Assembly: GCF_018398315.1 (NCBI RefSeq)
Contig: NZ_JAHBRW010000002.1
Coordinates: 1,596,637-1,660,636 of the forward strand
Direction: 5' to 3'
DNA: 64,000 nucleotides
DNA from: Chelatococcus sp. YT9
GTDB lineage: Bacteria > Pseudomonadota > Alphaproteobacteria > Rhizobiales > Beijerinckiaceae
Every line of letters starts with the position of its first letter. Within the stretch, counting starts at the first letter, position 1. The position numbers were made by a program, and so were the translations under genes. Shown piece after piece: positions 11,015 through 31,915 of this stretch. Under the pieces are notes generated by a model. That model worked only from the letters and a program-made list of their open reading frames with translations, made no database searches and was not told the DNA's origin.

Positions 11015-12306
11015 GCCGCAACGACCGGGACGACATAGGGTCCTTCGGGGATTATGGCGATGCTGCGGTCCTCGTGCCGTGCGATGCTTTCGGCGATGGC
11101 CGCGTCGAGCGAGGTGGTGATCTCGACACCCGTTGCGGCCCTGTCGGCATCGTTGAGGCCAGTGGTGTAGAGAACCACGCGGCCGGCATTCAACGGCTTC
11201 AGCTGCATCTGCGTCTGCCACTCGTCGATGTCGGCGAGTGACTTGGCCTTGAGCGTCGCGAGAAAGCGCTCGGGACCCAGCGCGACGAGCCGCTCCTGCG
11301 CTTCGCGGAACTCCTGCGAGCCGAAGCCTTCCGAACATTCGGAGGCGATGATCAGGGTGCCGCCCGGGGCGAGGATGTCGAGCGGCGTCACCATGCCCTT
11401 GATGGTCTGGTAATAGGTCTTGTCGAGCGGATAACCGGCGGAGGACGTGATGACCGTGCCGAACTGCCGGCCGACGGGGATGCGCGTCGCCGCATTGATG
11501 AAGCTGACGGCCGCGAGATGGCTCTCGATGATCTCGCCAAAGGTGACGTGAACGAGGTCGCGGTCCTCGTCGAGCACGGTGTTCAGCGCGTAGATCTCGC
11601 CGATCTTGCGGACGATCTCGAGCTGCTCCTCATGCAGGGGGTTGCCGACAAGGTTGCATTGCACAGCCAGCGGATCGGCCATGAAACGGGCGGAGTGAAA
11701 CGTGCGGATCGTCTCATGACCGGCGACACCCGGGGCCACCACTTTCCGGCCGCCGGACCAGCCGGCCATGAAATGCGGCTCGACGAGCCCCGTAGCGATA
11801 CGCAGGTCCGCCTCCACGAAACGCCGGTCGATTTTGACCGGTGTCCCACGCGTCGGCGTGGGGCCGAGATCGACATGGGCCTCGTCATCGCGGGCGAAGT
11901 GGTTCTCAACGCGGATCTGGGACAGGACCCATGGGTCGCCGATCAGTTCCGCGAGCTCCTCTCCCTCGTTCGGGCGGTGCAGCCCGGTCGCGACGAGAAC
12001 CGTGACGCGGTCTGCCGGCACGCCAGCCGCGATGATGGTCTCGATCATGGGCCGCAGGAAAAGCTTGTTCGGCACCGGCCGCGTGATATCGCAAATAAGG
12101 ATGCAGGCGCTCTCCTTGCCTTTCGCCAGCTCGGCGAGAGGGCGCGCGCCGATAGGCTTCGCGAAGGCGTCGAGAATGGCCTGCCCCTGGTCGGGCAACT
12201 TCGGCAGCACGGCCTTTCGAATGACCGTGACGTCCACATCGCCTGGCACATCGATCGGTAGATGGCCGCGGCCGAAAGCAAGCGATAGCGACGGCGAGTT
12301 GTCCAT
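11011..12306 (-). CDS. larA: LarA-family nickel-pincer-dependent racemase/epimerase
   Basis: A 431-residue catalytic protein that binds the NPN cofactor and moves a hydride at an alpha-hydroxy acid carbon. Residues equivalent to the known LarA set are visible: H110 in TGLHRPN, H178 in EPHFMAGWSGGRK, K188 (cofactor-linking lysine), and H204. The DxTRP motif reads DITRP (73-77), where lactate racemase has DHTRP. That change, and the absence of a lactate permease or larR nearby, means the substrate may not be lactate. It is the first gene of the operon. Confidence 0.9.
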   Translation of the reverse strand: MDNSPSLSLAFGRGHLPIDVPGDVDVTVIRKAVLPKLPDQGQAILDAFAKPIGARPLAELAKGKESACILICDITRPVPNKLFLRPMIETIIAAGVPADRVTVLVATGLHRPNEGEELAELIGDPWVLSQIRVENHFARDDEAHVDLGPTPTRGTPVKIDRRFVEADLRIATGLVEPHFMAGWSGGRKVVAPGVAGHETIRTFHSARFMADPLAVQCNLVGNPLHEEQLEIVRKIGEIYALNTVLDEDRDLVHVTFGEIIESHLAAVSFINAATRIPVGRQFGTVITSSAGYPLDKTYYQTIKGMVTPLDILAPGGTLIIASECSEGFGSQEFREAQERLVALGPERFLATLKAKSLADIDEWQTQMQLKPLNAGRVVLYTTGLNDADRAATGVEITTSLDAAIAESIARHEDRSIAIIPEGPYVVPVVAA

Positions 12307-14452: not shown

Positions 14453-15157
14453 TCAGGCCGCCTTCTCCTGCCATTCGGTGTAGCTGACCTCGGGATGATC
14501 GAGCCAATAGTCGGCATAGTACGGAATGAGCGGCTTATAAGCATCGAAGGCGCGGCGCAGGTCTCTGACTGCGTCCCCTCCGTCCTTGGGCAATGGATTG
14601 GCCATGTCGATCCGCAGGTCGACCAGCGGCCGCTCGCAGCCCGGTGCCGAAACGACGAGGCCGGCGGAGGCTTGTCCTTTTGGTTCGCCGCCGGCCGCGT
14701 AACCGGCCTCGATGGCGCGGACGAGCCGCTCGGCAAAATCGATACCAGTGTCGCTGGCGAAAGTGTCATGGATTGCATCGACGACCTGGGGGCCAGCGAG
14801 GCCGTTGCCCATCGCGACGAAGCCTGTGCCAACGCGATGGCCAGTCCAGGCCGCGCCTTTGGGCGGGCTATGGGCCGCAGCGGCGCCGTCGACCGTCACG
14901 ATACCCACTTGGCGGTAGGCGTGAAAATGGGGATCATAGCTCGCGAGCAGGCGCAGGATTTCGTCAGGCGACAGACCGCGGGCGGCGAGATCGAGGCCAA
15001 TATGGCCTAGCCGCCAATTGCTGTGGCACTGGGAGGAAATGGCGGCGACCCCGCCACGAACGTGGGGACAGCGGGATGCGACACCAAGAGGGCTCGTGGC
15101 AAGGCAAATGCCGAGCTGGCGGGTGTCTGGATCACGGGCGACGATGGTGAAGGTCAT
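14453..15157 (-). CDS. DUF1028 family protein (Ntn-hydrolase-like), copy 1
   Basis: A 234-residue DUF1028 protein. These are related to Ntn hydrolases, amide-bond-cleaving enzymes with an N-terminal nucleophile; no activity is settled for this one. Family features seen: the opening MTFTIVARDPDTRQLGI (T2 could become the N-terminal residue), VAAISSQCHSNWRLG, and TGTGFVAMGNGL-like GTGFVAMGNGLAG. AGGAGG six bases before the ATG gives a strong start. It lies 33 bp after a diverged paralogue in the same operon, headed by an HTH regulator. Confidence 0.88.
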   Translation of the reverse strand: MTFTIVARDPDTRQLGICLATSPLGVASRCPHVRGGVAAISSQCHSNWRLGHIGLDLAARGLSPDEILRLLASYDPHFHAYRQVGIVTVDGAAAAHSPPKGAAWTGHRVGTGFVAMGNGLAGPQVVDAIHDTFASDTGIDFAERLVRAIEAGYAAGGEPKGQASAGLVVSAPGCERPLVDLRIDMANPLPKDGGDAVRDLRRAFDAYKPLIPYYADYWLDHPEVSYTEWQEKAA

Positions 15158-15190
15158 ATCAATCCTCCTTTGCCCTGGCGCCCCGGCCGA

Positions 15191-15886
15191 TCAGGTCGGA
15201 TGCGGCGACATGGAACGTTTCTGGTAAATCTCGGTGAGTGGCAGGTAGCGTTCAAACAAGCGGCGCAGATCAGCCAGCGCGCATCCGCCGGCCTCGGGCG
15301 GATCGCGCGCGAGATCCACCCGCAGATCAATATGAACCGTTTCGTCCGGTGCACGTACGAGAAGGGAGCTGGAGACGAGCGGGCTTTCGGGTCCGAGATG
15401 TCCGCGCGCGGCCTCGAGGGAAGCGAGGAGGCGCTCTGCCATCGGCTGCCCCTGCCCATCGGCAAAACGCCGCTGCATGGCGGCGAGCACCGAGGGGTCG
15501 GGCAGACCGTTTCCAAGGCATACAAAGCCGCTCCCGCTGACATGGCCCGCCCAGTTCACGTTCATGGACCCGGTGTGCACCTCAATATCGCCGGAGGCTG
15601 CCACGATGGCGATCTGGCGGTAGTCCATCCACCGGTCGTGCTGGCGCAGGGCCTGCATCGTCTCCTGTACGGTCAGGCCGCATTGGATAAGGTCCAGCGC
15701 GAGTGGTCCCACCTTGAGGTTGCTGAAGCCCTGGCTCGCGACGACAGCCTTGCCGACAACAAGATGTGGGCAGCGGGCTGCCACGGCAATCGCCGACGAG
15801 GCGAGGGCGATGCCAAGCGTCTGGTCGCGCGGATCGCAGGCGAGCACGCTGAGCATGACGCCGCCGAGATCGAGCGGATTGTTCAC
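15191..15886 (-). CDS. DUF1028 family protein (Ntn-hydrolase-like), copy 2
   Basis: A 231-residue paralogue of the next gene. It shares the layout (LSVLACDPRDQTLGIALA, VVASQGFSNLKVG, GSGFVCLGNGLPDPSV) but is clearly diverged, so this is an old duplication or a heteromeric pair rather than a recent copy. The GTG start at 15886 overlaps the regulator's TGA (GTGA) and has AGGA upstream; ATG 15856 is a shorter alternative that matches the other copy's N-terminus. Both DUF1028 genes are probably translated with the regulator from one transcript. Confidence 0.87.
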   Translation of the reverse strand: MNNPLDLGGVMLSVLACDPRDQTLGIALASSAIAVAARCPHLVVGKAVVASQGFSNLKVGPLALDLIQCGLTVQETMQALRQHDRWMDYRQIAIVAASGDIEVHTGSMNVNWAGHVSGSGFVCLGNGLPDPSVLAAMQRRFADGQGQPMAERLLASLEAARGHLGPESPLVSSSLLVRAPDETVHIDLRVDLARDPPEAGGCALADLRRLFERYLPLTEIYQKRSMSPHPT

Positions 15887-16401
15887 GGCAAATCCTCTTG
15901 CTCTCCATGAGGGCCGGTGTCCGCTTCGTTGGCGATCATGGTTGCGGCTACGTCACGGGCAAAGCGTTCGATCAGAGCTTCGAGGCGACGCTGGGCGGCC
16001 GGATTGGTGAGCTGGGGGATGGTCAAAGTCATCGTGGCGCTGCCGGGTCCTGATTGGCCGCGCCCGAGGATCTCCGAGGCACGCTCGGGATGAGCGGCGA
16101 TATAGGCGTCGAGGAACATCCGCTCCTCATTTGGCTGGAGGCCCGCGATCTTGACGATCGTGCGGACATGCTGCGCCGGGATCGCGAGATCATAGGCCGG
16201 GCTCGTGATCTGGGTGATAAAGCTGCGCGTATTGCCCAGTGCTTCGGCGATGGCTTGGCGGCTGCCGGAGCCGCGGCGCTTGAGAAAAGCCTGAAGCAGC
16301 ATCTTGTAGCGACGAACGGGCATGAGCTCATCATAGAGCTCGAAGTCCCGGGCGGAGCCGGACGGCGTTGCGACGGCATTGGGCGAGGCAATACGTGACA
16401 T
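15883..16401 (-). CDS. Helix-turn-helix DNA-binding regulator
   Basis: A 172-residue protein with a Cro/C1-like helix-turn-helix at about residues 46-70 (RQAIAEALGNTRSFITQITS) and no recognisable ligand domain. It is first in the DUF1028 operon and diverges from the liv ABC operon. An AGCTAAAC motif lies upstream of this gene, upstream of livJ and upstream of hyuA, which makes this protein the best candidate for a local regulator (inference). The upstream ribosome-binding sequence is weak, so the start is less certain than the frame. Confidence 0.72.
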   Translation of the reverse strand: MSRIASPNAVATPSGSARDFELYDELMPVRRYKMLLQAFLKRRGSGSRQAIAEALGNTRSFITQITSPAYDLAIPAQHVRTIVKIAGLQPNEERMFLDAYIAAHPERASEILGRGQSGPGSATMTLTIPQLTNPAAQRRLEALIERFARDVAATMIANEADTGPHGEQEDLP

Positions 16402-16443
16402 GCAGACATAAGGCCTTAGCTCCTCGCTGCTCGCAAGCGAAAT

Positions 16444-16451
16444 GTTTAGCT
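16444..16451 (-). promoter_or_regulatory. AGCTAAAC motif, copy 1 (upstream of HTH-DUF1028 operon)
   Basis: Minus-strand AGCTAAAC, 43 bp before the HTH regulator start. The same eight bases precede livJ (16692-16699) and hyuA (21728-21735), always oriented toward the gene. The wider context GTTTAGCTGGAC is quasi-palindromic. Likely operator; the binding protein is not proven. Confidence 0.45.
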
Positions 16452-16664
16452 GGACATGTCGAGCGTTAAGTGCGGACGCTCACCTGTGCATGTTTTCGCG
16501 GCATTTGCGCTGATGAGGCGGCGCTTTTCTCTAGTGTGGGAGGCATACCCTACAGCGTGTTCCACGGCGCGCCGCAGCGGGATTCTGCAATAACATACTC
16601 AGAAATATGCATATTCGTCGCCCGCGGTGGATCAGTCATAAAAGTATTTCGCGCTGGATAAAAT

Positions 16665-16701
16665 TTAAGCTTGTTGCCCAACAAGTTTAATAGCTAAACT
16701 T
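16665..16701. promoter_or_regulatory. Nested dyads and AGCTAAAC motif upstream of livJ
   Basis: Two overlapping inverted repeats lie 60-96 bp before livJ. The first is CTTGTT (16670-16675) with AACAAG (16680-16685), extended outward by TTAA/TTAA. The second is AAGTTTA (16683-16689) with TAAACTT (16695-16701), a perfect 7-bp dyad with a 5-base spacer, containing AGCTAAAC. The region is AT-rich in a GC-rich setting, as expected for a regulated promoter. Confidence 0.5.
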
Positions 16702-16760
16702 TTGTCACTCGCTTGGCGAGCCAAAGTCTCCTGCAATGAGAGACCAGAGGGGTAAATCAC

Positions 16761-17882
16761 ATGCGTGGATTTGGAATCGTGCTGGCGGGAACGCTCGCCG
16801 CTCTGATCGCGGGGGCCCCGGCCCGCGCTGCGGATCCCTTGGTCATCGGCATGTTCGGTCCGATGACCGGTGAACGCTCGGCGTTGGGATTGCGTTTCCG
16901 CGAAGCCGCCGACATGTTCGTGGGGGAAATCAACGCGAAGGGTGGCATCGGCGGCCGTCTTGTCGAGGTCCGCATCGAGGACAGCCGCGGGGTGCCCCGC
17001 GAGGCGGCGAATATTGCCCAGAAGTTTGCGCAGGATGCGGCCGTGCTGGCGGTCATCGGCGGCCAGACGAGCACCGAATCAATGGCTGCCGGGCCGATCC
17101 TGGCGGAAGCGCATATTGCGCAGGTTGCCCCGACCGCCGGCCATCCGGACTATGTCAAGATCAGTCCTTACCAGTTTCGGACGACGCCGACTCACGCATC
17201 GATGGTGCAGCCTCATGTCGATCTCCTGACCAAAGTGATGGGCATGAAGAAGGTCGCCTTGGTCTATTTCAAGGATGACTGGGGCATGGTGACGAATACG
17301 ATGGTTTCGAAGGCGCTGAAGGACGTGGGCGTCGAGGTTGTCTTGTCGGAGGCGATGATTCCGGAAACGCGGGATTTTCGTCCGCTCATCACCAAGATAC
17401 TTTCTGCGAAGCCCGACGGCATCTTCCTTGTCAGCCACTACGCAGAATCTGCTCTCTTCATGCAGCAGCTGCGTCAGGCCGACCCCGGCATGAAGGTCGC
17501 CGGCACGGATACGCTCAATGATCCCAAGTTCATCGAGCTTGCGGGCGGTGCCGCCGAAGGGGTCATCATGCCGACCCCCTTCCTGGCCGAGGCCCCGGAG
17601 TCGGCCGCCTTCAGCAAGGCCTATGAGGCGAAATACGGCAAGGCGCCGAATTACTACTCGGCCTTTACCTACGACGCCATGCTCATCGTGACGAAGGCCA
17701 TGGAGGCGCTGGCCGCCAAGGGGGCGCCGATCACACGGCAGGCTATCCGCGACCAGATTGCCGCGTCGGGTCCGCTGCAGGGCGTGAGCGGCACGCTGAA
17801 GTATGAAGGGTCTGGTGATCTTGGCCCGCGTCAGATCAACTATATCGTGGTCAAGGGCAATACCTACGCTCCGTATAAATAA
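16761..17882 (+). CDS. ABC transporter substrate-binding protein, branched-chain amino acid/amide type
   Basis: A 373-residue periplasmic binding protein (type I fold, LivJ/AmiC-like). A Sec signal peptide covers residues 1-23 with likely cleavage after APARA. The mature protein opens with PLVIGMFGPMTGERSALG, the family-typical first strand. GAGGGG lies nine bases before the ATG. It is followed by a hairpin (17889-17916) and then by the fused permease and ATPase genes. These binding proteins take amino acids, amides, urea or aromatic acids; with hydantoinase genes downstream, a cyclic amide or ureide is plausible (inference). Confidence 0.93.
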   Translation: MRGFGIVLAGTLAALIAGAPARAADPLVIGMFGPMTGERSALGLRFREAADMFVGEINAKGGIGGRLVEVRIEDSRGVPREAANIAQKFAQDAAVLAVIGGQTSTESMAAGPILAEAHIAQVAPTAGHPDYVKISPYQFRTTPTHASMVQPHVDLLTKVMGMKKVALVYFKDDWGMVTNTMVSKALKDVGVEVVLSEAMIPETRDFRPLITKILSAKPDGIFLVSHYAESALFMQQLRQADPGMKVAGTDTLNDPKFIELAGGAAEGVIMPTPFLAEAPESAAFSKAYEAKYGKAPNYYSAFTYDAMLIVTKAMEALAAKGAPITRQAIRDQIAASGPLQGVSGTLKYEGSGDLGPRQINYIVVKGNTYAPYK

Positions 17883-17888
17883 ATAAAG

Positions 17889-17916
17889 CGCGGGCTGATC
17901 ATTTAACCAGCCCGCG
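17889..17916 (+). other. Intercistronic hairpin between livJ-type and livHM genes
   Basis: CGCGGGCTG (17889-17897) pairs perfectly with CAGCCCGCG (17908-17916) around a 10-base loop, six bases after the binding-protein stop. No U-run follows, so it is not a standard terminator. Such hairpins protect the upstream binding-protein mRNA from 3' decay in ABC operons. Confidence 0.7.
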
Positions 17917-17998
17917 ATACCGATCCTGCACTTTCCGCGCCTTGTCCGCGTTCGTCGCGGCGGGTCTTCCGATCCTCCCATCCGGAGCGACGCGGCAC

Positions 17999-19876
17999 AT
18001 GATCGAATTCCTTAGCCAGATCCTCAACGGCCTTGTCATCGGCAACGTCTATGCGCTCGTTGCGATTGGCTTCTCGCTGATCTTCGGCGTTACCAATCTC
18101 ATCAATTTCGCGCAGGGCTCGCTGCTGATGTTCGGCGCGTTCCTCGCCTATACCGGGATCAACCTGGGACTTCCGCTCGGGGTCGCTGTTATCGCATCGA
18201 TCCTCGGCACGACGCTCCTCGGCATGGCGATAGAGCGCATCGCTTTGCGCCCTCTGGAGAATGCGCCCTGGATCGCGCCGCTCCTGTCCACACTGGCGCT
18301 CACCTTCATGCTCGACCAGGCGGCGGAGATCATCTGGACGCCCGAGGCGCATCGCTTTCCCAGCCCGTTCTCCAACTACAGCTGGGTTGTGGGCGCGGCC
18401 TACATCACCGGTGTCGATATCGCCATCCTGGTCCTGTCGCTCGTCATCATGGTCGGTCTCTGGCTGTTCCTGACTTACACCTGGTCAGGCCGAGCCCTCA
18501 GGGCAATGTCCCAGGATCTCGATGCAGCGCGCCAGATGGGAGTTCCGACCGATCGGCTCCGGCAGCTCGCCTTCGGCCTTGGGGCCGCGCTCGCCGCCAT
18601 CGCCGGCGTGATGGTGGCGATGTACTATCAGAACCTCTATCCGCAGATGGGCGTGCCGTTCGGGCTCAAGGGGTTCACCGCCGCCCTGCTCGGCGGGCTT
18701 GCCAGCATACCCGGCGCCGTGGTGGGCGGCCTTCTGCTTGGCGTGCTGGAGGCTTTGGCTGTGGGTTATGTCGGCGAGGGCTTCCGCGATATGGTAGCCT
18801 TTGGCCTGCTTCTCCTCATTCTCACCGTCCGCCCGCAGGGCTTGCTCGGCGACAAGCGGCTCGATGCCCTAGGCGGTTCGCGTGGCGCATCGGGCGTCAT
18901 GCCGTCGACCAGCATCATGATCGGGCAGGGCGGTCAGCCGCTAATGACCGGCCGGCCGCTGAGCATCCCCTATGTCTGGCTCGCGGCTGCCGTCGCCGTC
19001 CTCGCGCTCCTGCCTCTCGTTGGCCTGTCGGACTACGTGGTGCAGGTCGGTCTCGTCATCGTCATCTTCGCGCTGCTCAGCGTGGGCCTGACGATGCTAT
19101 CGGGAGCGGCGGGTATCATGTTCCTCGGCTTCGCTGGCTTTTTCGGCGTCGGTGCCTATGTGGCGGCGCTCGCCGCCAAGCTGTGGGGCGTGCCCGCGGA
19201 GTTTGCCTTCCTGCTCGCGGCAGTCACCACTGCCATCCTGGCGGCCATGATCGGCCTGTTGTGCGCCTCGCTCACGGGCCATGTGGTCGGCCTCGCGACC
19301 TTGGCGATGGGCGTCCTCATCTGGCTCGTCCTTCTCAACTGGACGGATGTGACCGGCGGCCCGAACGGTATTTTCGGCATTCCGCGTCCACGCCTTCTTG
19401 TGGCGCCAGGGGTGTCGATGAGCAGCCTCGCGGCACAATATTGGCAGGCGTTGGCGCTGCTTGTGCTCGCGATCTTCGCGGCTGGGCGCTTTCTGGCTTC
19501 CCCGGTCGGCCGCAGTTGGCGGGCGATCCGCGAGGACCGAGTCGCTGCCCATGCTGCGGGCTTGCCGGTGCGGCGTTATCTGGTCACGTCCTTTGCTTTG
19601 GCGGGCGCCTGCGCCGGGCTAGCCGGAGGAGCCTTCGCCTTCCTGCATCGCTTCATCAGCCCGGATAGCTTCCGTCTCGACAGCTCCTTTCTCATGGTGG
19701 CCATCATTGTCCTCGGTGGGCTCGGCAATCTCACCGGTGCCTTGATCGGCGCCGTGCTTCTTCTGGTGCTGCCGGAAGTGCTTCGCGATTTCGCCGACTA
19801 CAGGAGGATCCTGTTCGGCGCGATCCTCTATCTCACGCTGCGGTTCCGTCCGCAGGGCATTGCGGGAGTTCGTTGA
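17999..19876 (+). CDS. Fused branched-chain amino acid-type ABC permease (LivH-LivM)
   Basis: A 625-residue inner-membrane protein joining two permeases that are usually separate. The LivH-like half (about 1-290) starts FLSQILNGLVIGNVYALVAI and has GLKGFTAALLGGLASIPGAV. The LivM-like half (about 320-620) contains GAAGIMFLGFAGFFGVGAYV and GRSWRAIREDRVAAHAAGLP, the EAA-like loop. A linker of roughly 30 residues (GGSRGASGVMPSTS) joins them. ATG 17999 has GGAG upstream; the frame is open to 17942. Its TGA overlaps the ATG of the fused ATPase gene, indicating coupled translation. Confidence 0.92.
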   Translation: MIEFLSQILNGLVIGNVYALVAIGFSLIFGVTNLINFAQGSLLMFGAFLAYTGINLGLPLGVAVIASILGTTLLGMAIERIALRPLENAPWIAPLLSTLALTFMLDQAAEIIWTPEAHRFPSPFSNYSWVVGAAYITGVDIAILVLSLVIMVGLWLFLTYTWSGRALRAMSQDLDAARQMGVPTDRLRQLAFGLGAALAAIAGVMVAMYYQNLYPQMGVPFGLKGFTAALLGGLASIPGAVVGGLLLGVLEALAVGYVGEGFRDMVAFGLLLLILTVRPQGLLGDKRLDALGGSRGASGVMPSTSIMIGQGGQPLMTGRPLSIPYVWLAAAVAVLALLPLVGLSDYVVQVGLVIVIFALLSVGLTMLSGAAGIMFLGFAGFFGVGAYVAALAAKLWGVPAEFAFLLAAVTTAILAAMIGLLCASLTGHVVGLATLAMGVLIWLVLLNWTDVTGGPNGIFGIPRPRLLVAPGVSMSSLAAQYWQALALLVLAIFAAGRFLASPVGRSWRAIREDRVAAHAAGLPVRRYLVTSFALAGACAGLAGGAFAFLHRFISPDSFRLDSSFLMVAIIVLGGLGNLTGALIGAVLLLVLPEVLRDFADYRRILFGAILYLTLRFRPQGIAGVR

Positions 19877-21570
19877 TGACGGTCGCCGTGCTTCATCGCC
19901 CCGTGGCAGCGCCCGCCAAGGCTGCCGACGGGCTAGCCATCGAGAATGTCAGCGTGAGCTTCGGTGGCCTGAAAGCCATCGATGATGTCACCATCCATGT
20001 GAGCCCGGGCGAGTTCATCGGCATCGTCGGCCCCAACGGAGCCGGCAAGTCGACACTCGTCCAGACCATCACCGGCTTCGTGCGGCCTACGGCCGGGCGG
20101 ATCACCTTCAAGGGCAGCCGCCTCGACGGGCGTTCGCCGGAAGCGATTTCCGCGCTCGGCGTGGCACGTACGTTCCAGACAAGCCGGGTGTTTCCCGCCC
20201 TCACGATCGCGGACAGCGTAATGGTCGGCACTCAGCGTGCGTTGATCGGCGGTGGCGCGAAGCCCAAGCGCTTCGGTGCCTTCGCAGAACCCATCGCAGC
20301 GTTGCTCGGATTGCCGGCCTATCGGCATGCGGAAGAAGAGGCACGGCAGCGAGCCGAGGCGGTGATGGCATTGTTCGGTGACCGCCTGGTCTCGCGCAAG
20401 GACAAACCCTCACACAGTCTCTCCTATGCCAATCGTCGCCGTCTCGATATTGCGCGCGCGCTGGCGGCCGGGCCAGATGTTCTTCTCCTCGACGAGCCGA
20501 CAGCGGGCATGAACCCGACCGAGAGCCATGAGCTGGCGGACCTGCTGCTGGACTTGCGCAAGAGTTTTCCCGCCATGGCGATCATCATGATCGAGCACAA
20601 GCTAGATATCGTTCGCCGCCTGGCGGAGCGCACGATCGTCATGGCGCATGGCCGGGCGATTATCGACGATAAACCGGACGCAGCCTTCGCGCATCCGGAG
20701 GTGACCGCTGCCTATCTCGGCAAAGCGATCAGCGGCGCTCTGCCAGCCACGCCCGCCGCGACCGGTGGAGGCCATCTCCAGCATGGCCCCGAGCAGGACC
20801 TGCTCGGGGATCCCAGAACGCCGGCGGTCGCGCTCAAGAACATCGATGTGTTCTATGGACCGGTTCAAGCCTTGTTCGACGTGTCGCTCCATATCAATCG
20901 AGGCGAGGCCGTCGCCGTTCTCGGCGGCAATGCGTCGGGCAAATCGACCACCATCAAGACCGTGCTGCGGCTGGTGCAGCCGCGCAAGGGCGAGGTCGAT
21001 TTCTTCGGCAAGCCGCTGGAAGCCCGCACGACCGCCGAGGTGATCGACCAGGGTGTCGCGTCCATTCCCGAGGGGCGTCGCATGTTCGCGGAATTGACCG
21101 TGCGCGACAACCTGCTCATGGGCGCTTTCTCTCGTCGCAAGGGAGATGCGAAGAAGCTGGAACAGGACCTGGAGCACGTGATCGCGGAATTTCCGTGGCT
21201 TGGCAGCCGGCTGAGCCAGCTGGCGGGTACCTTGTCCGGAGGCGAGCAGCAGATGGTGGCGATGGCGCGCGCTTGGCTGCGACGGCCGCGGATCCTGTGT
21301 ATCGACGAGCCGTCCATGGGCCTCTCGCCGCTCATGGTCGACCGGGTCTACGAGATCCTCGCGCGCTGGAAGGCGCAAGGATTGACGATCATCATGGTCG
21401 AGCAGAGCGCCAATCACGCACTGGAGCTGGTCGACCGTGCGTACGTCCTGCGCAACGGTGTCGTCGTGCTGGAAGGCGAGGCGGCCAAGCTTCGCAACGA
21501 TCCGGCGATCCAGGAGGCCTATCTCGGCCTCGGCCGGGAGAAGACGACCAAGGCCCAGGCCGCCGTTTAG
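19876..21570 (+). CDS. Fused branched-chain amino acid-type ABC ATPases (LivG-LivF)
   Basis: A 564-residue protein with two ABC ATPase domains. Domain 1 has Walker A GPNGAGKST (52-60), the LivG-style signature LSYANRRRLDIARA and LLLDEPTAGMNPTE. Domain 2 has GGNASGKSTT, LSGGEQQMVAMARAW and CIDEPSMGLSPLM, as in LivF. A linker rich in Ala, Pro and Gly joins them at about residues 285-310. With the fused permease, one polypeptide of each type makes the complete transporter, an arrangement that enforces 1:1 subunit stoichiometry. The ATG overlaps the permease TGA. Confidence 0.94.
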   Translation: MTVAVLHRPVAAPAKAADGLAIENVSVSFGGLKAIDDVTIHVSPGEFIGIVGPNGAGKSTLVQTITGFVRPTAGRITFKGSRLDGRSPEAISALGVARTFQTSRVFPALTIADSVMVGTQRALIGGGAKPKRFGAFAEPIAALLGLPAYRHAEEEARQRAEAVMALFGDRLVSRKDKPSHSLSYANRRRLDIARALAAGPDVLLLDEPTAGMNPTESHELADLLLDLRKSFPAMAIIMIEHKLDIVRRLAERTIVMAHGRAIIDDKPDAAFAHPEVTAAYLGKAISGALPATPAATGGGHLQHGPEQDLLGDPRTPAVALKNIDVFYGPVQALFDVSLHINRGEAVAVLGGNASGKSTTIKTVLRLVQPRKGEVDFFGKPLEARTTAEVIDQGVASIPEGRRMFAELTVRDNLLMGAFSRRKGDAKKLEQDLEHVIAEFPWLGSRLSQLAGTLSGGEQQMVAMARAWLRRPRILCIDEPSMGLSPLMVDRVYEILARWKAQGLTIIMVEQSANHALELVDRAYVLRNGVVVLEGEAAKLRNDPAIQEAYLGLGREKTTKAQAAV

Positions 21571-21726
21571 TCGCGGCTCTCTTGGATGGGGGGATTACCG
21601 CCGTCGCACTCGCGCGGAGCTGGTGCGCTGTCGCAACTATTCTTCATAACCATAAGTTGAATCTCATAAAAATAGTACGCCGCGCCCTGGCGAGTGGGTT
21701 GATCTGACCTTCAAAGCGTTATTAAG

Positions 21727-21735
21727 TAGCTAAAC
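21727..21735 (+). promoter_or_regulatory. TAGCTAAAC motif upstream of hyuA
   Basis: TAGCTAAAC lies 34 bp before the hyuA start, preceded by TTAAG. The same nine bases precede livJ (16691-16699), preceded there by TTTAA. Shared context suggests one regulator for both transcription units. Confidence 0.45.
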
Positions 21736-21760
21736 AAATCATCCCAGAGAGGGGTTTGAG

Positions 21761-23842
21761 ATGGGTCTGCGTATCGGCATCGATATCGGCGGCACTTTCA
21801 CGGATTTCGCCGTGCTGGATCCGGAGACGGGCAGCTTCAATATCGGCAAGGTGTTGTCCACGCCGGCTGATCCCGCGGAGGCGGTGTTTGAAGGGTTGCG
21901 GGGCCTGATGGCATCTGGCTCGCGTGATATGTCCGGCGTCTCGGAGGTCGTGCATGCCACGACGATAGCAACCAACACGGTGATCCAGCGGAAGGGGCCG
22001 CCAACGGCCCTGATCACTACACGCGGCTTTCGCGACGTGATCCTGATCGGCCGTCAGAAGCGCTGGGAACTCTACGACAACGCGGCGGGCCGTCCGGCTC
22101 CACTTGTGCCACGTCACCATGTCTTCGAGGTGCCGGAGCGCATGCTTTGGGACGGTTCGGTCGAAACGGAGCTCGACGAGGCGGCCGTGCGTGACGTGGC
22201 GAAACAGCTTCGCGCCAACGGCATCGTCGCGGTCGCCGTGTGCTTCCTCCACAGCTATGCCAATCCCGATCACGAGCGGCGGGTCGAGGCGATCCTCCGG
22301 GAAGAGGTGCCGGAGATCATGGTCTCGATCTCCTCCGACGTTTCGCCGCTCTATCGCGAGTTCGAGCGCACGAGCACGACGGTCATGAACGCCTATGTCA
22401 TGCCGGGCGTCGCCAACTACGTGGAGCGGCTCGACGAGGAGCTGAAGCGCATGGGCGTGGATGGACCCATGCTGATCATGCAATCGAACGGAGGCGTTGC
22501 CACCGCCGATGTGGTCAAGCGTTTCCCGATCCGCATCATCGAGAGCGGGCCGGCGGCGGGTGTGCTAACAGCGGCCCGCTTCGCGCCGGCGGCCGGCACC
22601 GACAACCTCATTTCGTTCGACATGGGCGGCACCACCGCGAAGCTCTGTCTCGTCGAGGGCGGCAAGCCGCTGCTGACGAGCCAGTTCGAGGTGGACATGA
22701 CGCATCTCAAGAAGGGCAGTGGGCTCCCCGTCAGCATCCCGGCCGTCGATCTGATCGAGATCGGCTCGGGTGGCGGCTCGATCGCCAAGGTCGAGCTCGG
22801 CGGTATCTCGATCGGGCCGGAAAGCGCGGGGTCGGTGCCTGGGCCGGTGTGTTACGGCCGAGGTGGCAAGCGGCCAACGGTGACAGACGCAGACCTGACG
22901 CTCGGTTACCTTAATCCTGACTATTTCCTCGGCGGCGAGATGAGCCTGGATGGAGCTGGCGCAAGGGAGGCAATCGACCGCGAGATCGCCCAGCCGCTTG
23001 GTCTCGATACCATGCAGGCCGTATGGGGCATCCACGAGATCGTTACCCAACAGATGGCTCAGGCCGCGCGGGCCGTCACCATCAGCTGCGGCAAGGACCC
23101 GCGCAGCTTCGCGCTCGTGCCCTTCGGCGGCGCGGGCCCGGTGCATGGCGCGCGGCTTGCCCGCATGCTCGGCTGCCCGAAGGTCGTGTTTCCGCGCGCG
23201 GCCGGCGTCGAATCCGCGGTCGGCCTCCTCATGGCGGAGACCTCGCTCGATCTTGCGCGCACGCAGGTCATGACCCTCGACGAGGCCGTCATCCCGACCC
23301 TCAACGCGCTATTCGCGGATCTGGAGGCGCGCGCTCGCGAACAGATGGAGCGATCCGGCGTCATTCCGGAGCGCCAGCGCTTCACGGCGAGCTGCGACAT
23401 GCGCTTCGCCGGCCAGGGCTACGAGATCGCGGTCGATCTGCCGCCCTATCCCTACACGGCGGTGGACCTTCCCGCGCTGCGCCAGGCCTTCTTCGAAGCC
23501 TATGCGCGCTCCTATGGCGCGCGCACCTTCGAGACCGGCTGGGATGTCGTCGGTGTGCACTGGCGCCTGCGGGCAACCGCCATCGGCTCGGTCCTCACCA
23601 TGGAGGATCTCGAGCCGCTCGAGGGTGACGTGACGCGTGCCGTCAAGGGCGCGCGCCAGGTCTGGTTTCCCGAGACGGACGGTTTCACGAACTGCACGGT
23701 CTATGACCGCTACCGTCTCAGCGTGGGCGATGTGGTCACAGGTCCGGCCATCGTCGAGGAGCGCGAATCCACCATCGTCCTGCCGCCCGACAGCACAACG
23801 CGTGTCGATCCGCACGGCAATCTTGTCACCGAACTCAGCTGA
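21761..23842 (+). CDS. Hydantoinase/oxoprolinase family protein, subunit A (HyuA-like)
   Basis: A 693-residue HyuA-type ATPase subunit. It opens with GLRIGIDIGGTFTDFAVLD, the phosphate-binding motif of the ASKHA fold. A second element, SFDMGGTTAKLCLVEGG, lies near residue 285, and FGGAGPVHGARLARMLG near residue 455. The family includes ATP-dependent N-methylhydantoin and 5-oxoproline hydrolases and the acetone carboxylase beta subunit. GAGGGG precedes the ATG. Eleven bases separate it from hyuB, so the two form one complex. The cyclic amide or other substrate is not determined by the sequence. Confidence 0.93.
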   Translation: MGLRIGIDIGGTFTDFAVLDPETGSFNIGKVLSTPADPAEAVFEGLRGLMASGSRDMSGVSEVVHATTIATNTVIQRKGPPTALITTRGFRDVILIGRQKRWELYDNAAGRPAPLVPRHHVFEVPERMLWDGSVETELDEAAVRDVAKQLRANGIVAVAVCFLHSYANPDHERRVEAILREEVPEIMVSISSDVSPLYREFERTSTTVMNAYVMPGVANYVERLDEELKRMGVDGPMLIMQSNGGVATADVVKRFPIRIIESGPAAGVLTAARFAPAAGTDNLISFDMGGTTAKLCLVEGGKPLLTSQFEVDMTHLKKGSGLPVSIPAVDLIEIGSGGGSIAKVELGGISIGPESAGSVPGPVCYGRGGKRPTVTDADLTLGYLNPDYFLGGEMSLDGAGAREAIDREIAQPLGLDTMQAVWGIHEIVTQQMAQAARAVTISCGKDPRSFALVPFGGAGPVHGARLARMLGCPKVVFPRAAGVESAVGLLMAETSLDLARTQVMTLDEAVIPTLNALFADLEARAREQMERSGVIPERQRFTASCDMRFAGQGYEIAVDLPPYPYTAVDLPALRQAFFEAYARSYGARTFETGWDVVGVHWRLRATAIGSVLTMEDLEPLEGDVTRAVKGARQVWFPETDGFTNCTVYDRYRLSVGDVVTGPAIVEERESTIVLPPDSTTRVDPHGNLVTELS

Positions 23843-23853
23843 GAGCGCCCGCC

Positions 23854-25623
23854 ATGAGCTCGATCGAACCCTTGGACACGACCATCGACCCCGTGACCTT
23901 CTCGGTGGTCTGGGGCGGCCTTCTGTCAACGGCCGCGGAGATGGGAAGCACGCTCCTGCGCACCGCCTATTCCATGACCGTGCGCGAAGGATCCGACTTC
24001 TCCACCGGCGTCTTCGACGCGGAGGGCAACATGGTGGCGCAGGGCGACTACAGCCCCGGCCATCTCGGCTCGATGGCGTTCACCGTGCGCCAGATGCTGG
24101 ACTACTATCCCGTCGGCAGCCTCGGGCCGGGTGACGCCGTGATCTGCAACGATCCGACCATCGGCTCCGGTCACCTCCCCGACTTCTTCATGGTCACGCC
24201 CGTCTATCTCGGCGAGAGGTTGGTCGGCTACGCTGTCAACATCGCCCACCATATCGATGTCGGCGGCAGCGCGCCGGGCAGCGAGGAGGTTGTGGGCGTC
24301 CGCGAGACATGCCAGGAAGGGATCCGCTTCCTTCCCACGCTTCTCTTCAAGAACGGGGAGCCGAACCGCGAGATCCTGCGGATCATAGAGGCCAACGTGC
24401 GCGTCAAGGACGTCATCGGCGACCTCCACGCGCAGTTCGCGGCAAATATGGTGGGCGCCAACCGCATACGCGCGCTGGCCGAGCAGTATGGCCCTGAGCA
24501 GTTCGCAGCTTGCATGCGCCAGATCCTGGTGCAGAGCCAGGAAGCGATGCTGGCGGCTATCGATGAGCTGCCCAAGGGCACGTACCACTTTTCCGACAAG
24601 CTCGACGACGTCGGGCCGGGCACGGAGCCTGTCCACATGCAGATGGCGCTGACCATCGCCGAGGATCGCATCATCTGCGATTTCGAGGGGACTGGTCCGC
24701 AGCGGGACGCGGGCATGAACGCCTACATGCAGTACACGCGGTCCTATTGCATCGCCGCTGTCAAATCCGTGACCCTGCCGCGAGCGCCGCAGAACTTCGG
24801 CATCATCCGCTGCATCGAGATCCGGGCGCCCCAGGGCAGCTTCGTCAATCCCCGGCCGGGTGCCGCCAGCGGCGCACGGGCCGTCACCGCCAACCGCATC
24901 TATGAGGTCGTGATGGGAGCGCTCGCCCAGGTCGTCCCCGATCGCGTCATCACGGCAAGCTCCGGCTTCTGCAATCCCAAGGTGAGCGGTTCTGTGAGCC
25001 CCTTTACAGGCAAGCCGTTTCTGGCATGGATGTCGGCGGTCGGCGGCGTCGGGGCGCACCGGCACCGCGACGGCCAGGAAGCGACCACCTCGCCAACCAA
25101 TGGCACGAACACGCCGGTCGAGGTGCAGGAAATGAACGCGCCGGTCTTTATCGAGCGCATGGAGCTCATTCCCGACTCAGCCGGGGCGGGGCGTTTTCGC
25201 GGCGGCATGGCGTTGCGCAAGGACCTGCGCCTTGTCGCCGATGTGGGGCTTGTCACCAATTTGGGCGATCGCTACGAGAACCATCCCTACGGGCTGGAAG
25301 GAGGCCTCCCCGGCACCTGCGCCGCCACCGTGCTCAACCCCGATACCCCGGAGGAACGTTACCTCCATTCCAAGGGAACCTACGCGCTGAAGAAGGGTGA
25401 TGTGCTCAGCATGCGCACGGCGGGTGCCGGTGGATTTGGTGCTCCGAAGTTGCGCGATCCCGAGCGTGTCCTCTGCGACGTGCGCGCTGGTCTCGTATCG
25501 ATCCGGGCCGCGAGTGACATCTACGCCGTGGCCATTCGTCCGGACCCGCTCGCCATTGACGAGACGGCGACGGCGAAACTCCGGATCGCAACCTCTCCAA
25601 GCGTCCTCGAACAGGCAAGCTGA
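23854..25623 (+). CDS. Hydantoinase/oxoprolinase family protein, subunit B (HyuB-like)
   Basis: A 589-residue partner of the preceding HyuA-like subunit. Family segments seen: DPVTFSVVWGGLLSTAAEMG at the N-terminus, REGSDFSTGVFDAEGNMVAQ, NDPTIGSGHLPDFFMVTPV, and AGAGRFRGGMALRKDLRL in the C-terminal third. Together the subunits hydrolyse a cyclic amide at the expense of ATP in known members. It is the last gene on this strand before a 430-bp region without genes. Confidence 0.93.
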   Translation: MSSIEPLDTTIDPVTFSVVWGGLLSTAAEMGSTLLRTAYSMTVREGSDFSTGVFDAEGNMVAQGDYSPGHLGSMAFTVRQMLDYYPVGSLGPGDAVICNDPTIGSGHLPDFFMVTPVYLGERLVGYAVNIAHHIDVGGSAPGSEEVVGVRETCQEGIRFLPTLLFKNGEPNREILRIIEANVRVKDVIGDLHAQFAANMVGANRIRALAEQYGPEQFAACMRQILVQSQEAMLAAIDELPKGTYHFSDKLDDVGPGTEPVHMQMALTIAEDRIICDFEGTGPQRDAGMNAYMQYTRSYCIAAVKSVTLPRAPQNFGIIRCIEIRAPQGSFVNPRPGAASGARAVTANRIYEVVMGALAQVVPDRVITASSGFCNPKVSGSVSPFTGKPFLAWMSAVGGVGAHRHRDGQEATTSPTNGTNTPVEVQEMNAPVFIERMELIPDSAGAGRFRGGMALRKDLRLVADVGLVTNLGDRYENHPYGLEGGLPGTCAATVLNPDTPEERYLHSKGTYALKKGDVLSMRTAGAGGFGAPKLRDPERVLCDVRAGLVSIRAASDIYAVAIRPDPLAIDETATAKLRIATSPSVLEQAS

Positions 25624-26052: not shown

Positions 26053-27033
26053 CTACAACTCGGTTACATCAACGGCGTCAGATAGTTCGCGCATAGTGAC
26101 TCGTAATTGGTAAATACGTCTTTCACCGGGCACGAGCTTATTTTCTGTACCGCTCAGCCCGCCATCCCGTCGCGCGCTCGTGCAAGGTTCTATGCCGAGC
26201 ACGCAGGCGTTGGGGCGCAGATCGTGCCAGAGCTGCAGATAAGGCAGAGATGCGCGTCCCCAGGCGAAGTCGATTCCCAGCCCTGTGGGGCCAAGTGACG
26301 GCGTTGCAACCCGGCAGCGCGCAAGGTCGTCGTTCTCGATCGCCGTCGTGAAGCTGTCGCGAGATGCGGTCGCGTCCGGCACCACGAGCGGACCGAGCAG
26401 TCTCTGCCCGTCGCGCTCGACGCGTGTTCCATCGGCAAGCGCGGGAAAGCCAAGATTGAAATGATAAAGGCTCGCTTGCGGACTGGGCGACGTGCCGATG
26501 TTCTCGACCTCATCCGTGATGGAGAGGAAGCACCCGCCAATAGCTGCTTCGATGCGCCGTTTAAGACGGAAGGCGTGTCCACCGAGGCGCGCCTGGACGA
26601 CTTCGCCTTCGCAGAACAGGACCGGCTCGTCGCGTTCCCAATCCTCTCCATAAGCCGTCACCCGCGCCGGCGTGAAGGGGAGCCGGCCATGCAGTGGATG
26701 GCCATCCGCAGGCTGCCGGATGTGGTCGAGGCCGCAGGTGACCAGAAAGCCGGAAAAACTCCTGTTGAAGCCGAAACCTTGATCGCCCTCCGCATCGTGC
26801 AGGGCGGGGCTCATGAAGCCCGTGGGGGCTTGCCAGGCAAGCGGCAGACCGCGCCACCAGAGCGGTCCGATATCGAGCGAGCGATCGGACAGCACCCAGA
26901 AATCGAGCCCGCCCCCCGTCGAAAAGGCGAGCGCCCGCACGCCGCGTTCCGGGCCATCATCCAGTGTGATCCGGCGAACGGCCGCGAACTGTCGCAAGTC
27001 GCCGGATCGCGTCCTGATGGAGGCCGCCCTCAT
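26053..27033 (-). CDS. DUF4432 family, aldose 1-epimerase-like protein
   Basis: A 326-residue beta-sandwich protein of the galactose-mutarotase superfamily. Segments such as VLSDRSLDIGPLWWRGLPLA, TCGLDHIRQPADGHPLHGRL and YHFNLGFPAL match DUF4432. The first resembles the sugar-contacting strands and HPLHG carries a candidate catalytic His. Members are thought to act on sugar anomers but are not well characterised. Its ATG overlaps the sulfatase TGA (ATGA), making it the last gene of the sugar ABC/sulfatase operon. Confidence 0.82.
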   Translation of the reverse strand: MRAASIRTRSGDLRQFAAVRRITLDDGPERGVRALAFSTGGGLDFWVLSDRSLDIGPLWWRGLPLAWQAPTGFMSPALHDAEGDQGFGFNRSFSGFLVTCGLDHIRQPADGHPLHGRLPFTPARVTAYGEDWERDEPVLFCEGEVVQARLGGHAFRLKRRIEAAIGGCFLSITDEVENIGTSPSPQASLYHFNLGFPALADGTRVERDGQRLLGPLVVPDATASRDSFTTAIENDDLARCRVATPSLGPTGLGIDFAWGRASLPYLQLWHDLRPNACVLGIEPCTSARRDGGLSGTENKLVPGERRIYQLRVTMRELSDAVDVTEL

Positions 27034-28577
27034 GACCCTGTCGCAACCTCTTCGGTTTCCCGCGATGCCGGCGCGGGCAGCCCGAGACGGGCGAAGGCCT
27101 CCGGGGGGGCTTCATTGTCAGCCATCAAGCGGCTCATCAAGGACACGAGCCGTTGCTCCGCATCGGGGTCGGCCAGCGGCCGTTCCTGCCCGGGATCGGT
27201 GACGAGATCATAAAGACGGGTCCCGTTCTCGATGAGCGCGCCGGGGCCATAGACATTGTACATCGGCGAGCGATCGGTGACGGGCACTTTCAGCACCTTC
27301 GCGCCCTTGGTGAAGGGAAAGCCGTTGGAGAGGCTCGCCTGCGACAGTTCTTCCGTCGAGAAAGGCGAGAAGATATGGGTGGGCATCAGCGTATACTGAT
27401 AGATCTCCTGGTTGTTCAGATCCGCTGGAAAACGGTGGTAGGTATAGCGCCCATCGGCAACATTCACAGCGCCACCGAAATAGCCGAACAAGGCTGCCTC
27501 GCGGAGTTGCATGCCTCGCGCGGCGGCAAGAAGGGAGCGCCCTTCCATCTCGGGCGCCGACGCGACGCCGAAGAGATCGAGAAAGGTCGGCGCGAGATCG
27601 ACCGCTTGGGTCAGCGCGGCGCAGCGCTCGCCATTCCTCGGCTGGCGGGGATCGTGCAGGAAGAGGGGGATATGGGCGATCTCCTCATAGAGATTCATGC
27701 GGTTCTTCGCCCAGAAATCGTGCTCGCCGAGCAGAAAGCCATGGTCGGTGGTCACAACGAGCGCCGTGTCCTTCCACAGGTCATGCTTGTCGAAGTAATC
27801 GAGCAACTCGCCCATGAGAAAATCGCACATCGAGACGATGGCATAATAATTCGCGCGCAGCTCCTCGCATTCTTCCGGCAATTCGTCGACCCGGCCATAG
27901 CGGGGCCAATCACGGATGGGGCCGGTCCAACCGGTATCGAACGCCTGTTTGAAGCGCGCGGGCGCCGTGAAGGGCTCATGCGGATCGAAGGTCTCGATCT
28001 GCAACAGCCAGTTGTCCGCATCGCGGTTACGGTCGAGAAATTCGAATCCATGCGCGAAGCATTGAACCGAGGGGAAGTCCTTTTCTTCCCGGATGAATTC
28101 CCGATTGATGATGTTCTGCGAAAAATACTCGCGGCGTTCGGTGGTGAACTGGCGAGCGTGATACATCTCCCGCAGCCGCTCCCAGTGCGGCTGGACCATG
28201 GCTTTCCAAGGATCACCTTCCTGCCCGCGCACGAACTCATAGGTATCGTAGCGATTGTGGTAGGTGGCCCCGCCATCCTCCCAATAATGGAAGTGGTCGG
28301 TGATCAGGTGGCTGTATACGCCCGCGTTGTGGAGGAGTTCCGGAAAGGCGTTGTCGAAAGGCTCCAGCGGGCCCCAGCTGCGATGAAGAAAGGTCAGCCG
28401 GCCGGTGAGCATGTCGCGGCGCGCCGGCATGCAGGGGAGGCTGCCGACGTAATGGGTGTCGAAGGTAAGACTCCTCGCGGCGAGCCGATCAAAATTCGGG
28501 GTCGGCACACGCGTGCCGCCATAGGCTCCCAGCATGTGCCGGTTGAGCGAATCGAACAGGACGAAGACTGCTTTCAT
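27030..28577 (-). CDS. Cytoplasmic type I sulfatase (Cys-type, formylglycine dependent)
   Basis: A 515-residue alkaline-phosphatase-superfamily sulfatase. The N-terminal FVLFDSLNRHMLGAYGG holds the first metal Asp (D9), and SLPCMPARRDMLTGR holds the C-x-P-x-R motif whose C49 must be oxidised to formylglycine. TDHGFLLGEHDFWAKN carries later metal ligands. No signal peptide is present, so it acts in the cytoplasm on an imported sulfate ester. ATG 28577 has GGAAG upstream; the frame is open to 28634. No formylglycine-generating enzyme is in the window. It follows two sugar-permease genes. Confidence 0.9.
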   Translation of the reverse strand: MKAVFVLFDSLNRHMLGAYGGTRVPTPNFDRLAARSLTFDTHYVGSLPCMPARRDMLTGRLTFLHRSWGPLEPFDNAFPELLHNAGVYSHLITDHFHYWEDGGATYHNRYDTYEFVRGQEGDPWKAMVQPHWERLREMYHARQFTTERREYFSQNIINREFIREEKDFPSVQCFAHGFEFLDRNRDADNWLLQIETFDPHEPFTAPARFKQAFDTGWTGPIRDWPRYGRVDELPEECEELRANYYAIVSMCDFLMGELLDYFDKHDLWKDTALVVTTDHGFLLGEHDFWAKNRMNLYEEIAHIPLFLHDPRQPRNGERCAALTQAVDLAPTFLDLFGVASAPEMEGRSLLAAARGMQLREAALFGYFGGAVNVADGRYTYHRFPADLNNQEIYQYTLMPTHIFSPFSTEELSQASLSNGFPFTKGAKVLKVPVTDRSPMYNVYGPGALIENGTRLYDLVTDPGQERPLADPDAEQRLVSLMSRLMADNEAPPEAFARLGLPAPASRETEEVATGS

Positions 28578-28642
28578 GGTCACTTCCGTTGAACCGGCCC
28601 GCGACGGCGGGCAGCCCTTACTCGTGGCGGTCAATCACGGCG

Positions 28643-29476
28643 TTACTTCACCGCGCCTTGGGTCAGTCCTTTGACAATGTAGCGTTGGCCGATCAGCAGA
28701 AGGATGAGTGCCGGGAGGATCGACAGCGCCGCGCTTGCTGCCATCTGCGTGTAGAGAATCTCGAAGTCCTGCGCGAATTTGGCGATTGCGACCGGCACCG
28801 TCGCCGTCTGCTTCATGGTGAGATTGAGGGCCACCGCGAATTCGTTCCAGCTGAAGACGAAGGTCAGGACGCCGGTCGCTGCAAGGCCGGGCGCGATGAT
28901 CGGCAGTACGATCTTGCGCAGCAGCAGCGGCGTGGAGGCTCCATCGATTGCCGCTGCTTCTTCGAGTTCCCGCGGAACCTCTCGCACGAATACGCCCATC
29001 AGCCAGAGCGCCATCGGCAGGTTGAGCACGGTATGGGCAAGGATCAGCGCCGTGAAGGTGTTGTCCAGCCCGACCGCCCGCGCCATCGTGAACCAGGCGC
29101 CCGCCAGCGCGATCGGCGGGATCATGTGGAACAGGAGTGCCCAGGCGAGGAAAATATGGACGACCCAGCGCGGCCACCGCATGCGATGAAGCGACCAGGC
29201 TGCCAGCGTCGCGATCACGAGGCACAACGCCGTGCTGATGATGCCGACGATGAGCGAGTTCCGGTAGTTGACGAGGAAATCGGAGGTTTTGGAGAACAGG
29301 ACCTCTGTGAAGCTCGTGAGGACCGGGGTGAAGAAGAACTCGCCCGTCAGCAGCGAGATCTGTGTGCGGAAGCCGGCCGCGACGACCCAGACGACGGGCG
29401 CGACGACCGCTATCGCCGCTGCAATCAGAAAGACGTGGCTGCCGACGTGGCGGGGCGCAGCAGAACCCGTTCTCAT
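28643..29476 (-). CDS. Carbohydrate ABC transporter permease (MalG/LacG type)
   Basis: A 277-residue inner-membrane permease with six predicted helices. The EAA loop reads EEAAAIDGASTPLLLRKIVL, the ATPase-docking segment, and FVFSWNEFAVALNLT is typical of the MalG branch. Its ATG at 29476 overlaps the stop of the other permease (ATGA). It pairs with the MalF-type permease and a binding protein upstream. The operon has no ATPase gene. Confidence 0.93.
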   Translation of the reverse strand: MRTGSAAPRHVGSHVFLIAAAIAVVAPVVWVVAAGFRTQISLLTGEFFFTPVLTSFTEVLFSKTSDFLVNYRNSLIVGIISTALCLVIATLAAWSLHRMRWPRWVVHIFLAWALLFHMIPPIALAGAWFTMARAVGLDNTFTALILAHTVLNLPMALWLMGVFVREVPRELEEAAAIDGASTPLLLRKIVLPIIAPGLAATGVLTFVFSWNEFAVALNLTMKQTATVPVAIAKFAQDFEILYTQMAASAALSILPALILLLIGQRYIVKGLTQGAVK

Positions 29477-30417: not shown

Positions 30418-30430
30418 GGGCACACCGGCC

Positions 30431-31786: not shown

Positions 31787-31915
31787 GAACATCCTCCCCA
31801 ACGCGGGCCGGGCGTCTCGCGGCCACTTATTTTGAAGAAGGAGCGTTGCACATCCACGCTATGCGCACAAACAACTTTTAATGCCGCAGCCATAGACGGA
31901 GTGAATGGCTAATCG

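Follow-up and report, generated by a model that had tools for sequence, protein, structure and literature searches.

The window analysed here is a 64-kb stretch of a Chelatococcus genome (Hyphomicrobiales; 6.74 Mb as a whole), and its subject is a cluster of eight genes at positions 14453–25623 that appears to pair a small regulator with an importer and two kinds of amide-cleaving enzymes. On the reverse strand lie the gene of a helix-turn-helix (HTH) regulator of 172 amino acids (15883–16401), for which a lambda-repressor-like domain is predicted, and those of two DUF1028 paralogues, DUFb (15191–15886) and DUFa (14453–15157), taken here as the presumably dead partner and the presumably active subunit of an N-terminal nucleophile (Ntn) hydrolase. 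The frames of the HTH protein and DUFb overlap by four bases, and 33 bases separate DUFb from DUFa, a spacing that would fit a single transcript. On the forward strand follow livJ (16761–17882), encoding a LivJ-type substrate-binding protein, a fused permease gene livHM (17999–19876) and a fused ATPase gene livGF (19876–21570), then hyuA (21761–23842) and hyuB (23854–25623), which encode the ATP-dependent cyclic-amidase-type subunit A and the metal-binding subunit B. Three operator-like sites accompany these genes: a half-site upstream of HTH-DUFb-DUFa (16444–16451, reverse strand) and two dyads on the forward strand, TTTAATAGCTAAAC upstream of livJ (16686–16699), with wider arms GTTTA-N5-TAAAC, and TTAAGTAGCTAAAC upstream of hyuA (21722–21735).

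The element common to the three sites, AGCTAAAC, occurs three times in the window, always in the gap before the HTH gene, livJ or hyuA and always facing its gene, when 0.35 copies are expected and none of 100 shuffles reaches three. An earlier sequence-only reading of this stretch had described the eight genes and the three copies, and all of them were recovered with the same places and orientations. Across the whole genome, the motif is found 13 times (the same letters read backwards: 142 times), and a hand estimate from this density puts the chance of three copies in the two gaps concerned (549 bp together) at about 2e-10, a figure that ignores differences in gap composition and the after-the-fact choice of the motif. 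The sites end 25 bp (hyuA), 42 bp (HTH) and 61 bp (livJ) before the start codons. The idea of a single motif shared by the three units proved correct for the three copies but too simple for their form, since the livJ and hyuA sites belong to a longer dyad, TTWAR-N3-CTAAAC, and the HTH side carries a half-site. In the four Chelatococcus genomes that were compared (including that of the window), the exact dyad TTWARNNNCTAAAC yields nine matches, eight of which are the livJ and hyuA sites (two per genome) and one a stray in genome G399; in the genome of the window, the two matches of the cluster are the only ones, on which account a wider regulon was rejected. The livJ site, AGTTTAATAGCTAAACTTTT, is unchanged in all four genomes and contains the inverted repeat GTTTA-N5-TAAAC according to the gap alignment, and the 14-bp hyuA site is likewise identical in all four. 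Upstream of the HTH gene, the exact AGCTAAAC is present in two of the four genomes and (A/G)CTAAACATTT in all of them, which is all that is common there. Finally, the pattern RCTAAACAWWT has 13 matches in these genomes, eight at the HTH gene and hyuA and five outside the cluster.

To look beyond the genus, GTDB contigs were scanned once with DUFa, using two strict peptide patterns that may miss relatives, which led to six loci: C. asaccharovorans, Tropicimonas, Poseidonocella, Plastoroseomonas, Mangrovicoccus and a metagenome-assembled genome (MAG) of the Afifellaceae, which the search for HTH homologues in the order had reached as well. The eight-gene set is complete in six of the nine genomes examined, i.e., the four Chelatococcus, Tropicimonas and Poseidonocella. 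The last two are Rhodobacterales, share the gene arrangement of Chelatococcus and show tblastn identities of 76 and 73% for HyuA, 54 and 56% for DUFb and 58 and 63% for the HTH protein, respectively. Mangrovicoccus, also in the Rhodobacterales, has its cluster genes spread over three contigs (L066, L048, L172), some of them truncated; a transposase gene lies near one of these pieces, and a rearrangement and an assembly fault are indistinguishable there. As for Plastoroseomonas (Acetobacterales), it has DUFa alone, whose neighbours are an amidase and a binding protein of the dipeptide type; its genome is devoid of HTH homologues.

The livJ dyad, in the form TTWAR-N3-CTAAA, is observable in seven of the eight HTH–livJ gaps (Chelatococcus, Tropicimonas, Poseidonocella and Mangrovicoccus), and CTAAAC upstream of the HTH gene likewise in seven of eight; at each of the loci L045 and L046, 20.7 kb contain two CTAAAC and no more, both within this gap. 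The livJ-facing arm is CTAAAT in Tropicimonas, hence the exact AGCTAAAC points the opposite way there. The hyuA site is restricted to Chelatococcus, where hyuA has its own gap, and no site separates livGF from the hyuA that follows it in Tropicimonas and Poseidonocella, so that the notion of three units each with a site applies to the former genus and not to the latter two. The sites therefore follow the transcription units across genera, as a regulon predicts. Conservation of the gene set and of the motif was a test set beforehand, and both hold across two orders. A chance motif was rejected, considering the counts in the window, in the genome and for the dyad, as well as its recurrence in other genera: the view that three unrelated units merely happen to be neighbours has the small length of the motif in its favour and nothing else, is contradicted by the conservation across two orders and by the motif counts, and deserves next to no credence. 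A dedicated local regulon is well supported.

Which protein reads these sites is a separate question. The HTH protein has neither a Pfam match nor a PDB sequence match, and its model (mean predicted local distance difference test, pLDDT, 70; predicted helices at residues 28–103) is assigned by Foldseek to the lambda repressor with a probability of 0.99, but with an E-value of only 0.097. A strict pattern scan of viral contigs revealed no relatives. At E 0.001, 75 of the 397 genomes searched in the order have homologues (that of the window and G231 among them), 74 of them in single copy, and among 29 homologue loci taken from other genomes with 1.5 kb on each side, only that of G231 shows DUF1028 and livJ genes. 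This abundance of homologues without the cluster, along with a half-site before the HTH gene that departs from the dyad, is what one would expect if the dyad were real but bound by another regulator, or were part of a promoter, the HTH protein acting elsewhere. We hold this to be decidedly unlikely: the site and a close HTH orthologue (at least 54% identical) occur together in seven of seven genomes, the genome with a diverged HTH protein (39%) is devoid of the site, and the site hardly occurs elsewhere in the genome, which would not be expected of a general promoter element. The HTH protein encoded in the cluster would then be the one that binds the sites. The cluster itself is rare. Of 19 genomes of other genera in the same family, 17 lack any HTH homologue and the remaining two have a distant one (89 and 76 bits); among 394 genomes drawn from the family of Poseidonocella, a close orthologue is limited to the centre genome, with one distant homologue (116 bits) besides; and among 385 genomes drawn from the class, only that of the window has an HTH score above 121 bits. 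Each of the last two counts covers a draw from a larger group, and Tropicimonas and Mangrovicoccus show that there are other carriers.

Regarding the DUF1028 pair, DUFa (173 bits) and DUFb (164 bits) are both well over the PF06267 cut-off of 26.2, and the family is present in 161 of the 397 genomes of the order. The two proteins part ways at the presumed active site. DUFa begins with MT(F/Y)T in six of six rows (the start codon being read as Met), and this Thr, presumably the nucleophile by analogy with the family, is kept in every one of 40 further DUF1028 proteins, each from another genome of the order. The model of DUFa (pLDDT 89) has 2imh as its best fold match (E 2.5e-16), and proteasome subunits come next (E about 1e-5). 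DUFa differs at two positions where the 40 others are invariant (Thr4 for Ser, Ala196 for Pro). In DUFb, the Thr column holds Met in six rows and Gly in one, hence Thr in none of the seven; in these rows, residues stand ahead of the usual start, before the protein strand that matches that of DUFa, the start codon of the DUFb of the MAG being uncertain. Moreover, Gly156 (DUFa numbering, as below), invariant in the 40 others and in six of six DUFa rows, is Leu in five of five DUFb rows. The two like DUF1028 enzymes proposed at first are consequently not alike, DUFb being without the catalytic Thr, and this difference is the new point of our analysis and its most useful one. DUFb nevertheless retains Arg82, Gln83, Asn118, Arg144, Ser164, Arg182 and Asp184 in five of five rows, so that its fold is probably intact. 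Such retention could mean that DUFb has a catalytic role of its own through a different nucleophile, or that it senses a substrate instead of assisting an enzyme, which the substitutions in the Thr column and at Gly156 argue against and which we deem unlikely. It seems more fitting that DUFb may be a dead partner to which DUFa binds. In the proteasome, active and inactive subunits are paired in this manner, and the inactive one likewise has residues ahead of the usual start.

No second DUF1028 copy was found within 8 kb at any of 40 other DUF1028 loci. On plasmids, DUFb has matches in 261 records, all below 60% identity (33–34% for the 15 listed). In the review PMC9140057, SPO2555 is presented as a separate Ntn subfamily with an N-terminal Thr, which resembles the proteasome subfamily, is without peer-reviewed data and is called so far uncharacterised. 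A literature search, outside of which most subscription journals lie, returned nothing on DUF1028, COG3342 or PF06267, nor any report on such a cluster as judged from titles or the start of abstracts.

The Hydant_A (PF05378, PF01968, PF19278) and Hydantoinase_B (PF02538, 522 bits) domains span HyuA and HyuB over their full length. HyuA has two DxGGT phosphate motifs and GxxPGP, at 8, 287 and 357, and D48, H107, D110 and H132 of HyuB align with the metal ligands of CapB; according to PMC8453981, ATP motifs and Asp-His-Asp-His metal ligands are those defined for ATP-dependent lactamases. Among solved structures, HyuA is closest to N-methylhydantoinase (455 bits), followed by 6yra (376 bits) and then by carboxylases, and the first two are also the nearest relatives of HyuB. 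Subunits of acetophenone and acetone carboxylases do match HyuA, with scores from 342 down to 192 bits and motifs in common, which would be compatible with a carboxylase-like enzyme instead of a cyclic amidase. We nonetheless regard this as improbable, because N-methylhydantoinase and 6yra outscore the carboxylases for both subunits, and HyuA scores 545 bits with the CapA model but 328 with that of acetophenone carboxylase gamma. HyuAB may be read as opening a cyclic amide with ATP, without being a caprolactamase in the strict sense, as the NCBIfam equivalog cut-off of 1000 is not reached (545 and 249 bits). In six genomes searched, Tropicimonas, Poseidonocella and Mangrovicoccus, all with an HTH orthologue, have one homologue of HyuA each at 73–76% identity, and every other HyuA-like place is at most 45% identical to the cluster copy. 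With a threshold of E 1e-30, such places number 18 in the genome of the window and 3 to 10 in the other five. In a study of acesulfame degradation by Chelatococcus (PMC10413263), the terms hydantoinase, ABC transporter and branched-chain are absent from the main text.

The LivJ-type protein (PF13458, 207 bits; nearest solved chain 3hut) is below the LivJ and urea-transporter cut-offs (113, 52 and 47 bits vs. 477, 493 and 495), as is the fused permease (PF02653 in two stretches) with respect to those of LivH and the urea transporters. The fused ATPase (PF00005 in two stretches) is below the LivG and LivF cut-offs and over those of UrtE (304 vs. 286) and LptB (266 vs. 240), although these two scores are for the whole protein, with stretches in both halves, and are no guide to the substrate.

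Taken together, the cluster may be a dedicated and auto-regulated system for the uptake and catabolism of one small cyclic amide, of lactam, hydantoin or imide type, to which we give a somewhat better than even chance. LivJ-HM-GF would import the compound, HyuAB would spend ATP on ring opening, with activation in HyuA and hydrolysis at the metal of HyuB, and a DUFa/DUFb heteromer would hydrolyse a linear amide, before or after ring opening, Thr2 of DUFa acting as the nucleophile once exposed by the loss of Met1 and DUFb serving as the dead partner. The HTH protein would bind the TTWAR-N3-CTAAAC dyad before livJ and, in Chelatococcus, that before hyuA, as well as the half-site at its own gene, and repression would be lifted by the substrate or an intermediate. 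Import and cleavage in two steps, as deduced from the gene families, is a reasonable scheme and the best reading. What the sequences show is the gene set with its conservation, the conserved sites and the conserved residues, to which binding by the HTH protein, repression, the heteromer, the class of the substrate and the order of the steps are added by inference.

Several observations weigh against this scheme. The HTH-side site is without a clear second arm, and a consensus scan, which found two terminator-like sites between the HTH gene and livJ, revealed no sigma-70-like promoter in either gap; repression is a guess from the distance of 25–61 bp between the sites and the start codons, and a weak one, as no promoter was recognised. 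The related carboxylases have the same motifs as HyuAB. In the Afifellaceae MAG (Hyphomicrobiales), where the HTH protein is 39% identical, the order is DUFa-DUFb-HTH-livJHMGF without adjoining hyuAB (best HyuA copy 42%), and the HTH–livJ gap has neither the dyad nor the CTAAAC half-site. Finally, the neighbourhoods of 40 DUF1028 loci (L080–L119), picked among listed matches more than 100 kb into a contig and mostly high scorers, were compared with those of 40 controls, one of which contained a DUF1028 gene: a dipeptide-type ATP-binding cassette (ABC) binding protein is near 20 vs. 5 of them and a Liv permease near 8 vs. 2, but hyuAB lies within 8 kb of none vs. one. A general tie between DUF1028 and HyuAB was rejected on these counts.

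Part of this evidence suits a system for linear amides or small peptides, in which DUFa/DUFb would act first and HyuAB would recycle a cyclic by-product, e.g., a 5-oxoproline-like lactam. The MAG, having the importer, the HTH protein and both DUF1028 genes without hyuAB, is in line with it, and so are the dipeptide-type binding proteins near half of the 40 loci and the neighbours of DUFa in Plastoroseomonas and in Poseidonocella, where an amidase gene comes after it. On the other hand, hyuAB is present in all six complete clusters and has its own site in Chelatococcus, and we consider this alternative rather unlikely. Within the cyclic-amide scheme, a reverse order of the steps could be accommodated too, given that hyuAB is lacking in the MAG and that DUF1028 genes commonly have the neighbours counted above.

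A bolder proposal, which we advance tentatively and rate at somewhat less than even, is that DUFa and DUFb form a proteasome-like heteromer of active and inactive Thr-hydrolases devoted to a small molecule and that, with HyuAB, they constitute an undescribed two-enzyme, ATP-plus-Ntn route for a cyclic amide, governed by regulators of a small family that have an operator of their own. If true, this would supply the SPO2555/DUF1028 subfamily with its first function, and a dead partner in an Ntn hydrolase for small molecules would offer an instructive parallel to how proteasome subunits evolved. A compact, dedicated regulon in which the DUF1028 pair is joined with a regulator, an importer and an enzyme of the ATP-dependent cyclic-amidase type also allows a direct search for the substrate, with LivJ and the HTH protein as ready-made ligand probes.

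On either side of the cluster lie other genes. Adjoining hyuB, the reverse strand at 26053–31801 encodes a DUF4432 protein, a sulfatase and the solute-binding protein of a sugar-type ABC importer, likely a unit separate from the cluster. A ClC channel gene also adjoins the cluster and has on its far side a LarA-like nickel-pincer racemase gene (9668–12306, reverse strand), whose 351 bits fall short of the 460 set as curated cut-off, next to a frame that we take to be LarC-like.

Each part of the cluster can be set beside a known system. As in Liv/HAAT ABC importers, all five functional modules are present, but livH-livM and livG-livF are fused. The regulator may be akin to lambda-repressor-like (XRE-type) proteins by its predicted helical DNA-binding domain, and it differs from them in having no Pfam match at all and a Foldseek E-value of only 0.097. 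DUFa is like SPO2555 (PDB 2imh) in its match to the DUF1028 family, in its N-terminal Thr and in its fold as predicted, whereas the cluster has a tandem pair of which one member is without the Thr. The likeness to the alpha and beta subunits of the proteasome lies in the fold matched by the DUFa model and, by analogy, in the pairing of an active with an inactive member; here, any DUFa/DUFb heteromer or ring is hypothetical, and the Pfam match is what suggests an Ntn fold for DUFb. Finally, HyuAB is built of two subunits like the ATP-dependent lactamases, represented by the caprolactamase CapAB of Pseudomonas jessenii, N-methylhydantoinase and 5-oxoprolinase, and has their ATP motifs and metal ligands. 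It differs from CapAB in being below the caprolactamase cut-offs and from N-methylhydantoinase at the fourth ligand, His132 in HyuB and in CapB as well, with which a Gln is aligned in the N-methylhydantoinase chain, and from all of these lactamases in being accompanied by a Liv transporter and DUF1028 genes.

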